In this document: piece after piece, positions 37,364 to 40,027 of the stretch | Position numbering within the stretch: the first letter of the stretch is position 1 | How the letters are laid out: every line of letters starts with the position of its first letter | Source of the DNA: Gammaproteobacteria bacterium | Lineage (GTDB): Bacteria > Pseudomonadota > Gammaproteobacteria > HK1 | Direction of reading: 5' to 3' | Assembly (NCBI GenBank): GCA_021773645.1 | Contig: JAJFJU010000015.1 | Location: forward strand, 124,001-188,000 | Length of the DNA stretch: 64,000 nt | Position numbers and translations under genes: made by a program | Notes under the pieces: generated by a model | Told to the model about the DNA's origin: nothing | Seen by the model: the letters and a program-made list of their open reading frames with translations, nothing else | The model's database searches: none

Positions 37364-37369
37364 TTGATT

Positions 37370-37400
37370 AAAGGCGCCCCATTTGGAGCGCCTTTTTTTT
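37370..37400 (+). terminator. Intrinsic terminator after tRNA-Asp
   Basis: AAAGGCGC (37370-37377) pairs with GCGCCTTT (37388-37395), and the T-run continues to 37400. It ends the hupB-tRNA transcript about 32 bases before ppiD. Confidence 0.85.
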
Positions 37401-37432
37401 GGCACAAATATAAGCAGAGGTCGATTAAAGTC

Positions 37433-39349
37433 ATGCTTGAGTTTATCCGTGAGCGTGCCCAGGGTTGGATGGCCTGGGTTATCGTAATTCTGATCTGTAT
37501 TCCGTTCGCATTATTTGGCATCAATAGTTATTTTGGTACCGATCCCAATGCACCGGTGATCATCGTTGATGACAAGGAAATTGGTTTGATCGATTTCCAG
37601 CGTGCCTATCAGAATGATCTGGCCACTCTGCGTAATCGGTTTGGCAATCAGTTTGACCAAAACCTGTTGGACCAGGCGCGATTGAAACAACTAACCGTTG
37701 ATCGCCTAGTGCAGGCAGAACTTGTCTCGCAGCTTGCCGCAAAGGACGGACTGCGTATTGGTGAGGCCCAGCTCGCAACGGTGTTGAGAGCACAACAAAA
37801 TTTTAGAGAAGGCGCGGTTTTCTCCCCCTCTAGATATCAGAATTGGCTGCAGTCCCAGGGATACACCGCCAGTGGCTTTGAGGAACTGTACAAGGGTGTA
37901 TTGCTGAGCCAGCAACTGCGTTCAGGTATAGAAGTATCCCGCTTTAGCACTAACCGCGACCGAGCACAGCTGAAAAGGCTCATTGCGCAGACGCGTGATT
38001 TCTCTCTGCTAAAGATTACTGCTGCCATGCTAGGCGATGGCACGAAGCCTGATGAGGTGGCGCTGGCCAAGTATTACAGCGAACACCAGGCACAGTTTCG
38101 CACCCAGGAAAGGCTCAGGCTGGACTATCTCGTGCTGTCTAGCAAGGCACTTGCGGCAGGGGTCGTGGCCACTGAGGAGGCCCTGTTGGAGCTCTATGAG
38201 GTACAGAAGCTCGACTATGTGGTCCCGGAGCAGCGCTCAGCACGCCACCTGTTGATTGCCCTTAAAAGCAATGCGGATGACAAGACGGTGGCCCAAGCAC
38301 TACAGCGGATTAACGATTTTCGAGCGCAAATCCAAGTGGGGGCCTCTTTTTCCAAGTTGGCGGCAGAGCATTCTGATGATCCAGGTTCCTCAAAACAAGG
38401 TGGTGATCTTGGTTCCTTTAGCAAGGGTGTTATGGACCCTGCATTCGAAAAGGCTGCCTTTGCACTGGAGTTAGGCGGGTTGAGTGAGCCCGTTCGTAGT
38501 GCCTTTGGTTTTCATCTGATTCAGCTAGATGCCATTGAGGCCGAGCATGGAAAAAGCTTTGCTGACGTGCGGGATGAATTGCTTGCACGCTACCGTAGTG
38601 ATGAGGCAGAAAAAATACTTTACGAGCAAGTGGAGAGGCTGGCAACGCTGGCCTTCGAAAATCCCGACTCACTGGAAGTTGCTGCCGAAGAACTGGAATT
38701 AAAGCTTAATAAAAGTGATTGGATAGCACGCAATGGAGTAGCGGGTGATGCGCTGCTTGGCGATCGCAAGCTATTAACCGCGGCCTTTTCAGACGATGTG
38801 CTGGAAGCTAAAAATAACAGTGAAATACTTGAGCTGGCTGATGGTCGCTATGTGGTGCTGAGAGTTTCCGAACATGTGGCCCCCAAGGTGCGCGAGCTCG
38901 ACGAAGTGCATGGTGAAATTCTCGCCTTGCTGAAATCAAAAGATGCCAGCAGCAGACTGGCGGCACGTGGCCAGCAGGCATTGCAGAGCCTTAAGACAGG
39001 GACTTCCAGTGAAAGCCTTGCTAAGCGCCTTGCGGCTAAATGGCGACCTTACGAGTCGTTGACGCGCCATGATCTTTCCTTGGACCCGGAAATCTTACAG
39101 CGCATCTTTCGGATGTCTAAGCCGGTAAACGGTGCACTAGTATTTGATGGCCTTACTAGCAATAAAGGTGATTTTATTCTCATCGCATTAAGCCAGGTGA
39201 GCGAACAATCGGTGGACAGTGAGGGGGCTAAAAATCAACAGGCAGCGTTGGAATCTTTGCTCGGAAAGGGTGGCCGTGCCGAGTATGAGGCCTATTTGCA
39301 GAGCCTGCGTAATGCCGCAGAAATTGTGGTTCACCAGAGTCGATTGTAG
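37433..39349 (+). CDS. ppiD: Periplasmic folding chaperone PpiD
   Basis: An inner-membrane-anchored chaperone at the SecYEG exit. The protein has 638 residues: a short cytosolic start (MLEFIRERAQGW), one membrane segment (about 13-32), SurA-like N-domain helices, one parvulin domain (about 245-345; SARHLLIALKS..GGDLGSFSKGVMDPAFEKAAF), and a long C-terminal region. An upstream in-frame start at 37364 would run through the terminator and is rejected. The order hupB-(tRNAs)-ppiD is conserved. Confidence 0.95.
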   Translation: MLEFIRERAQGWMAWVIVILICIPFALFGINSYFGTDPNAPVIIVDDKEIGLIDFQRAYQNDLATLRNRFGNQFDQNLLDQARLKQLTVDRLVQAELVSQLAAKDGLRIGEAQLATVLRAQQNFREGAVFSPSRYQNWLQSQGYTASGFEELYKGVLLSQQLRSGIEVSRFSTNRDRAQLKRLIAQTRDFSLLKITAAMLGDGTKPDEVALAKYYSEHQAQFRTQERLRLDYLVLSSKALAAGVVATEEALLELYEVQKLDYVVPEQRSARHLLIALKSNADDKTVAQALQRINDFRAQIQVGASFSKLAAEHSDDPGSSKQGGDLGSFSKGVMDPAFEKAAFALELGGLSEPVRSAFGFHLIQLDAIEAEHGKSFADVRDELLARYRSDEAEKILYEQVERLATLAFENPDSLEVAAEELELKLNKSDWIARNGVAGDALLGDRKLLTAAFSDDVLEAKNNSEILELADGRYVVLRVSEHVAPKVRELDEVHGEILALLKSKDASSRLAARGQQALQSLKTGTSSESLAKRLAAKWRPYESLTRHDLSLDPEILQRIFRMSKPVNGALVFDGLTSNKGDFILIALSQVSEQSVDSEGAKNQQAALESLLGKGGRAEYEAYLQSLRNAAEIVVHQSRL

Positions 39350-39352
39350 GAA

Positions 39353-39509
39353 GGACTCGAACGGCAATAACATCACCATTTCGAGAGACGATGCATTCCA
39401 CCTGGCAGCGTTGCTCGTCAGTTGAATAGAATGACTATTCGCCCTCCTCGCGCCTAGCCAGTCGGGCGTCTCGAGTCTCGAAATGGCAACATTATTACCG
39501 CCCGAGTCC
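39353..39509. repeat. Large imperfect palindrome (MITE-like) between ppiD and the DUF1249 gene
   Basis: 34-base arms (39353-39386 and 39476-39509) have seven mismatches. All are A-C on the plus strand, hence G-U in a minus-strand RNA. An inner CTGGC/GCCAG pair (39402-39406, 39457-39461) and a central GAATAG-aatga-CTATTC hairpin (39424-39440) complete a long fold. No ORF of its own. An alternative hairpin, CCCGAGT/ACTCGGG (39501-39524), competes with the right arm. It differs in sequence from the element at 9318. Confidence 0.72.
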
Positions 39510-39544
39510 CAAGCAATACTCGGGCCTGTGTTAGCATTTGCCCC

Positions 39545-40027
39545 ATGCTGCTTCGTCACCATCAGGCCCCAGGTCGTTATCAGCGCCCCCATAATCTCGG
39601 GACGTTGATTTCTCTTTACGAAAATAATTTCATTCAACTCCAGCGCCTGATTCCCGACCTGGAGCAGCTGGAGGGTACATTGATCTCCAGTGTGCATGGC
39701 GCTCATAATCTCTATCTTTCAATCGGGCAACGTTCCCCCTATACCACCCTGATTTCCCTTTCCTACCGTTTTAGTTCTTCAACCCAGATCGCCGAGGAGC
39801 CCAATGCCCACATTCGTATCTATCACGATGCGCGTACGGTGGAATTGCTCGGACATAGTCGGAAAAAATTGGCCGCCCGCCCGGTCCGCGGTCCCTATCA
39901 ACGCATGCCGGAATTGCATCGACGCTGGTGCTTAAATCGCTTTCTCTATAAATGGTTGGGCTACTGTCAGCACCAGGGCCATCTGTTTCTCTCTGGCATG
40001 ATGGATTGCGGCAATCACCCTACCTAA
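39545..40027 (+). CDS. yqiB: DUF1249 family protein (YqiB-like)
   Basis: A conserved gammaproteobacterial protein of unknown function, 160 residues, probably cytosolic. Seen: LISLYENNFIQLQRLIPDL near the N-terminus, YTTLISLSYR, IRIYHDARTVELLG and the C-terminal WCLNRFLYKWLGYCQHQGH, all hallmarks of the YqiB family. In E. coli yqiB sits near cpdA and nudF; here it precedes mazG, 7 bases away, so the pair is probably co-transcribed. No catalytic motif is apparent. Confidence 0.85.
   Translation: MLLRHHQAPGRYQRPHNLGTLISLYENNFIQLQRLIPDLEQLEGTLISSVHGAHNLYLSIGQRSPYTTLISLSYRFSSSTQIAEEPNAHIRIYHDARTVELLGHSRKKLAARPVRGPYQRMPELHRRWCLNRFLYKWLGYCQHQGHLFLSGMMDCGNHPT

Follow-up and report, generated by a model that had tools for sequence, protein, structure and literature searches.

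MITEs are usually taken to be dead derivatives of insertion sequences, and their hairpins are regarded as a by-product of the inverted repeats. The ERIC/IRU element of enterobacteria is a palindromic MITE of 127 bp, an imperfect long palindrome that is found between genes in either orientation. REP/RAYT systems and the attC sites of integrons depend on strand-specific hairpins of single-stranded DNA (ssDNA) that are recognized by a recombinase. In Coxiella, a hairpin of very high stability has been predicted for the transcript of QMITE1/2 (PMC5896051). A catalogue of mobile and repeat sequence candidates from 2024 contains 250 candidates for mobile structured motifs, one of which, MRSC-65-2, is a single long stem with covariation, more than 20,000 members in diverse phyla and a UYCCGG repeat (PMC11109978). 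The searched passages of a review on prokaryotic MITEs describe no case of a strand-specific core that crosses phyla (PMC10969869).

In this work, a 157-bp palindrome in a stretch of 64,000 nucleotides from a Gammaproteobacteria bacterium (contig JAJFJU010000015.1; the whole stretch is called the window below) is compared with these systems. The element shares with QMITE1/2 that it is short, non-coding and multi-copy, with terminal inverted repeats and short target duplications, and with ERIC/IRU that it is an imperfect long palindrome of similar size in an intergenic position; no similar sequence was found in the E. coli genome collection at E<=1e-3. Compared by ends and targets only, it differs from REP/RAYT and attC in its terminal inverted repeats and in the TWA or CTAG targets of its family. 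The nearest known concept is the class of mobile and repeat sequence candidates, MRSC-65-2 above all, which is similar in its single covarying stem, its diverse phyla, its dozens of copies per genome and in leaving open whether the RNA or the DNA form matters, and is set apart by its stated UYCCGG repeat as opposed to the GCGAGGAGG/CGAGCAACGC core described here (PMC11109978). Some relatives of the present element end in TCCCGG or TTCCGG, and the family may overlap or be identical with candidates in that catalogue (PMC11109978). Among the 4227 models of Rfam 15, none matched the element at thresholds up to E<=1, nine loci that hold relatives likewise had no Rfam match at the element, and the core sequence strings were not found in any related context in a collection of 5.4 million papers. 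Unlike in described prokaryotic MITEs, the core is conserved across phyla, is joined to different ends and has a strand-specific fold; the MITE anatomy is known, and the unusual part is this cross-phylum, strand-specific core shared by different ends.

The insertion behind ppiD and its copies in the genus

The element lies between ppiD and a DUF1249 gene (Table 1), and as a palindrome of 157 bp it is far beyond chance. Folded as RNA, the minus strand has a predicted minimum free energy of -86.9 kcal/mol (z -10.0, with 0 of 200 shuffles as low) and the plus strand one of -63.7 kcal/mol (z -6.6). The difference between the strands amounts to 23 kcal/mol with RNA parameters vs 5.4 kcal/mol with DNA parameters.

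Table 1. Coordinates of the element, its parts and the neighboring genes in the window
Feature	Position	Strand	Basis
Upstream gene ppiD (SurA_N_3 and rotamase domains), stop TAG at 39347-39349	37364..39349	+	
Decayed target-site duplication, GAA (TAA in intact copies)	39350..39352	.	flanks of other copies, empty site in G001
Whole element, 157 bp, MITE-like	39353..39509	- (folding, or "motif", strand)	copies in own genome and congeners, empty site in G001
Left terminal inverted repeat/arm (3' arm of the minus-strand hairpin)	39353..39386	-	arm alignment, pair states in nine copies
Conserved core: GGC, WAG, GCG, tandem G.A helix, apical hairpin, CAA, CGC, N, GCC	39404..39459	-	covariance model R1 match, 74-sequence alignment, pair table
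Conserved block CGAGCAACGC, 3' side of tandem G.A helix and CAA bulge	39408..39417	-	
Apical hairpin, stem covarying across the family	39424..39440	-	core alignment, pair table
Conserved block GCGAGGAGG, 5' side of tandem G.A helix	39443..39451	-	
Right terminal inverted repeat/arm (5' arm of the minus-strand hairpin)	39476..39509	-	arm alignment, pair states in nine copies
Decayed target-site duplication, CAA	39510..39512	.	flanks of other copies, empty site in G001
Downstream gene, DUF1249	39545..40027	+	

A first, sequence-only reading had described a non-autonomous repeat. Searches with blastn bear this out: the own genome (G000) holds four full copies and one internally deleted copy, and others are present in two congeners, several in G002 and only remnants or traces in G001. 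The deleted copy (G000:C4:28883-28972) has lost its center and with it the core. When oriented, the copies share a common unit GGACTCG...CGAGTCC, and most of those with intact ends are flanked by TAA/TAA or TTA/TTA as 3-bp duplications. In G001, an empty site, TTGTAAATAAGCAATAC, is found just past the ppiD stop, where the window reads TTGTAGGAA-[element]-CAAGCAATAC. The element is thus a 157-bp insertion at TAA with a decayed 3-bp duplication and is a MITE by anatomy: it is shorter than 500 bp, non-coding, bounded by terminal inverted repeats of 34-39 nt, associated with a target duplication and an empty site, and present in several dispersed copies. That it has no coding capacity also holds, since the single listed open reading frame across it (39188-39706, minus strand, 172 aa) extends in antisense across both ppiD and the following gene and is not specific to the element.

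Two further observations were made in G002. At the same ppiD 3' site (G002:C13:225500-227500, L190), about 47 nt of unrelated sequence are present, perhaps the remnant of another insertion. In addition, two copies, G002:C30:187479-187693 (L014, L018) and G002:C13:259512-259731 (L012, L019), carry an extra homologous segment of about 50 nt (..CCAGGGA..GCACAGGATGTGCGAGAGCG..) at an identical position within the core, which looks as though inner modules could be swapped.

Other features proposed for the locus fared differently. The central hairpin, GAATAG-AATGA-CTATTC, is present. The element had been considered antisense to the 3' end of ppiD; it begins 4 nt 3' of the stop codon, so it does not overlap the coding sequence and is antisense to downstream DNA only. 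The alternative hairpin at 39501-39524 exists, but half of it is host DNA and not part of the element: it pairs the right end of the element, CCCGAGT, with the flank ACTCGGG. This flank is host-derived and reads ACCCTGG and ACCCCGG in the congeners, which makes the hairpin a local coincidence, private to this locus.

Strand asymmetry of the arms

The 34-nt arms differ at positions 8, 9, 13, 19, 20, 22 and 23. As had been noted from the sequence, all seven differences are transitions, and all appear as A.C on the plus strand and as G.U on the minus strand. The chance of 1/64 (two-sided) that had been attached to this agreement is correct for seven independent transitions, but the sites are common to the element family and are therefore properties of the lineage rather than seven events in the window copy. 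Scoring 28 arm positions in nine genus copies by their pair state on the minus strand gives 178 Watson-Crick, 55 G-U, 11 A-C and 8 other cells, and nearly all of the A-C cells are private to single copies. Aligned in this way, the copies display the G-U-preserving change that the first reading had proposed to look for: shared difference columns are G-U in 9 cases and A-C in 1. Column 19 is C-G, U.G or U-A among the copies and column 22 is U-A, U.G or C-G, both of which are double changes through a wobble intermediate, and columns 8 and 9 switch back and forth from A-U to G-U. Private changes in the genus, by hand count from the pair-state table, comprise 6 G-U and 9 A-C.

The same preference is observed in distant relatives from many phyla on the motif strand, using a scoring of the arms that treats both kinds of transition alike. 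Among the matches listed, the arms of 50 elements contain 190 G-U vs 55 A-C differences. Grouped into 31 clusters, 58 elements among the matches listed favor G-U in 21 clusters and A-C in 4, with 6 ties (p 0.0009). Chance matches from the same scan lack such a bias (48 G-U vs 68 A-C). With core-adjacent bases left out, the count for the elements is 134 G-U vs 53 A-C. When only the arms are folded, the motif strand does better in 48 elements and the complement in 8.

Changes specific to single copies behave differently. Off Watson-Crick, four within-genome families in the relatives G042 and G037 contain 30 G-U and 25 A-C, and pooling these families with the genus gives 36 and 34; against the 190:55 of divergent elements, this differs with a Fisher p of 4e-5, the cells not being fully independent. 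The balance among copy-specific changes indicates that new mutations are not strand-biased and that the bias accumulates among propagating copies. In several columns, moreover, the wobble takes turns with A-U, a pattern that C-to-T change on the minus strand is unable to produce. Strand-biased C-to-T change, offered earlier as the alternative to a conserved fold, is thus disfavored. Of the proposal that an intact fold is kept as a minus-strand RNA, the part concerning the strand stands, in nine genus copies and 58 relatives, and the part concerning RNA is reduced to a slight lean over ssDNA. As judged from these alignments, it is a single strand whose fold has been maintained over long periods, either as RNA or as single-stranded DNA, and because only one strand is kept self-folding, the element probably acts in one of these two forms.

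A core common to elements with different ends

In the class relative G037, only the central 56 bases of the element were matched. A pattern scan with GCGAGGAGG-N12-40-CGAGCAACGC over 84,980 species genomes yielded at least 119 stretches, roughly half of them chance. Among the matches listed, at least about 64 have the full context (AGGC/AGAC and a spacing of 40-52 nt), and their hosts are Acidobacteria, Verrucomicrobia, Actinobacteria (Acidimicrobiia), Deltaproteobacteria, Planctomycetes and many Pseudomonadota. A covariance model was built from 74 cores. In a survey that scored few candidates per genome, so that its counts are lower bounds, the model places the core in at least 54 of 338 good Pseudomonadota genomes (16%). 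The copy number is about 55 in G042, 30 in G037, 19 in Lysobacter G038, 7 in G002, 5 in G000 and 2 in G001, the fifth match in G000 and the second in G001 having weak scores. In the window, model R1, whose training includes the sequence of this element, matches 39391-39468 on the minus strand with 71.4 bits (E 4.5e-20). Weak matches of the model at G000:C4:388576-388674 (L295) and G001:C21:59139-59235 (L296) represent another type of repeat that shares only the frame GGCAAGGCG...CAACGCCGCC and has a different inner stem (..AGCGGAGTTTACAT..GTAAATGAGCA..), which suggests a still larger superfamily. Family f58, from another class of the same phylum with genomes of 1.2-2.9 Mb in many genera, has the core in many sampled genomes, with up to 11 or more copies.

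The fold of the core was read from a direct pair table of the 74-sequence alignment. RNAalifold misses the G.A helix because it allows only standard pairs. In about 70 of 74 sequences, the motif strand reads C-G, G.A, A.G, G-C, G.A, A.G and G-C in this table, and often one more G.A/A.G step, the third, precedes the apical hairpin. Below this helix lies a GCG/CGC helix with constant AAG and CAA bulges. The complement strand would have C.U and A.C mismatches instead. Within the window's own family, the G-C between G.A pairs has changed to G.U or A-U in copies L002 and L003. In the type C elements described below, CGAG/CGAG has changed to CAAC/GTTG or CGAC/GTTG, with the next G-C flipped to C-G and the G.A pair kept. 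In the lower stem and the apical hairpin, 15 of 17 predicted pairs have changes on both sides. Inspection of the core alignment by eye shows no stable RNA tetraloop that recurs among the apical loops. DNA, too, can form tandem G.A and G.T pairs, and both RNA and DNA are able to adopt such a helix.

Relatives of about 164 bp in G038, G039, G041 and G042 have the ends TAGTG...CACTA, flanked by C and G, which corresponds to a CTAG target. Three types are found together in G037: the TAGTG type, one of about 266 bp ending in GAGCCTGTCTGTGAATAA (type B), and one of about 205-240 bp ending in TAGAAACGGCAGTTG (type C). Since the same core occurs with unrelated ends, it is not tied to one kind of end. 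Within G042, the outer left and right arms of the copies change together. Copies in this genome (L231-L270, L304-L310) are mosaics, in which two right inner arms (..GGGAAAAAGACGC.. or ..CTGGCTCACTAGCGCGGTGAG..) are combined with different outer ends. Type B of G037 and the longer elements L042, L064, L081, L088, L094 and L114 seem to have, on the opposite strand, another core-like half in inverted orientation.

Judged by target preference alone, the ends may be IS5-like (TWA) and IS630-like (CTAG). In the own draft genome, all 10 end matches of a pattern search fall in the five known copies, and end-pattern searches found no transposase bearing the ends of the window element in the genus. Neither did they find an autonomous partner in five other genomes or for types B and C of G037, where no transposase lies between or behind unpaired element ends. 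Plasmid searches with the element ends gave no convincing match (only E of about 1 or worse), core or element queries gave no plasmid or phage match, and the core pattern was absent from the viral contigs searched. An IS630 transposase beside plasmid matches H1-H3 was rejected as a partner, as the match was the host flank of L110, where an IS630 end adjoins the element.

How the fold may be maintained

The preferred reading, with a probability of roughly 0.6, is that the element is a MITE whose minus-strand fold is kept, with a shared core module, through selection on source copies via a single strand, with a slight lean to RNA. The 157-bp element, inserted at TAA behind the ppiD stop, would have been moved in trans by a putative transposase. 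Its body forms one long hairpin of which only the minus strand is kept foldable: arm differences persist there as G-U, and the core consists of GCG/CGC, the AAG/CAA bulges, tandem sheared-type G.A pairs between G-C pairs and a variable apical hairpin, a module common to elements with unrelated ends in many phyla. Selection would act on propagating (source) copies through a single-stranded form. A read-through transcript in the minus sense may fold into a compact hairpin that a protein could recognize, and this hairpin may allow insertions to be tolerated and source copies to persist. We infer this role in propagation from the pattern of changes. RNA is slightly favored over ssDNA because the gain from G-U is far larger in RNA (23 vs 5 kcal/mol) and many copies lie at gene ends. 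Against the preferred reading, copies lie in both orientations to the upstream gene, so that some are not transcribed as the folding strand, the apical loops have no recurrent RNA tetraloop, the end searches found no transposase in the genus or between unpaired ends in G037, and the core-less copy in the own genome still persists. Tentatively, and at somewhat below even odds, the tandem G.A/AAG-CAA module, on several types of non-autonomous transposon across many phyla, may be an undescribed functional RNA (or ssDNA) that is needed for propagation.

The closest alternative is that the minus strand works as an ssDNA hairpin that becomes accessible during replication or uptake and is recognized by a protein needed for mobility, as in attC or IS200/REP hairpins, with no role for RNA. 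The same pairing data fit this explanation, propagation seems to be what is constrained and not the individual copy, and the helix can be built in DNA. Furthermore, the motif strand is on the strand of negative GC skew in 44 of 68 loci (p of about 0.02, uncorrected, with gene orientation uncontrolled), a possible replication-strand bias that is too confounded to carry weight. However, the gain from G.T is smaller in DNA, and the ends, being terminal inverted repeats flanked by target duplications, do not look like the HUH or integron type. This explanation is judged less likely than not, although ssDNA as the acting form is nearly as good as RNA.

It is improbable that the element serves the host as a 3'-end hairpin that caps or stabilizes the upstream mRNA, as REP and ERIC can. 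Many copies start 0-4 nt past a stop codon, and in 29 of 45 intergenic cases the motif strand reads in the same sense as the upstream gene, with 16 in antisense, a lean that is not significant. The window copy has the opposite orientation. Moreover, the TAA, TTA and CTAG targets alone place insertions at stop codons, and the copy-specific changes have no preference for paired states, so that single copies are not measurably constrained.

Even less probable is a plain MITE in which the transposase or hairpin-templated conversion keeps the arms similar and the agreement in G-U is a founder accident. Palindromic MITEs are common, and the joint change of the outer arms in G042 would fit such a process, but symmetric conversion favors neither strand, the same strand is favored in 21 of 25 informative clusters among the matches listed, and the core has compensatory changes around its tandem G.A pairs. 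Finally, strand-biased mutation of C to T on the minus strand with no selected fold could account for all seven sites of the window copy, but it is scarcely credible given the copy-specific balance described above, the alternation of A-U and G-U in columns 8, 9 and 22, and the preference for the same strand in unrelated hosts and in either gene orientation.

The preferred reading of a strand-selected MITE fold bears on how such elements are viewed. That a single strand stays foldable in different phyla and with different ends indicates that the non-coding body probably has a job. The balance of G-U and A-C in arm differences, compared between fixed and copy-specific changes, offers a simple and general test by which a functional hairpin can be distinguished from an accidental palindrome. 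For this family, it raises a concrete question, namely whether an RNA-binding or an ssDNA-binding protein recognizes the conserved core.
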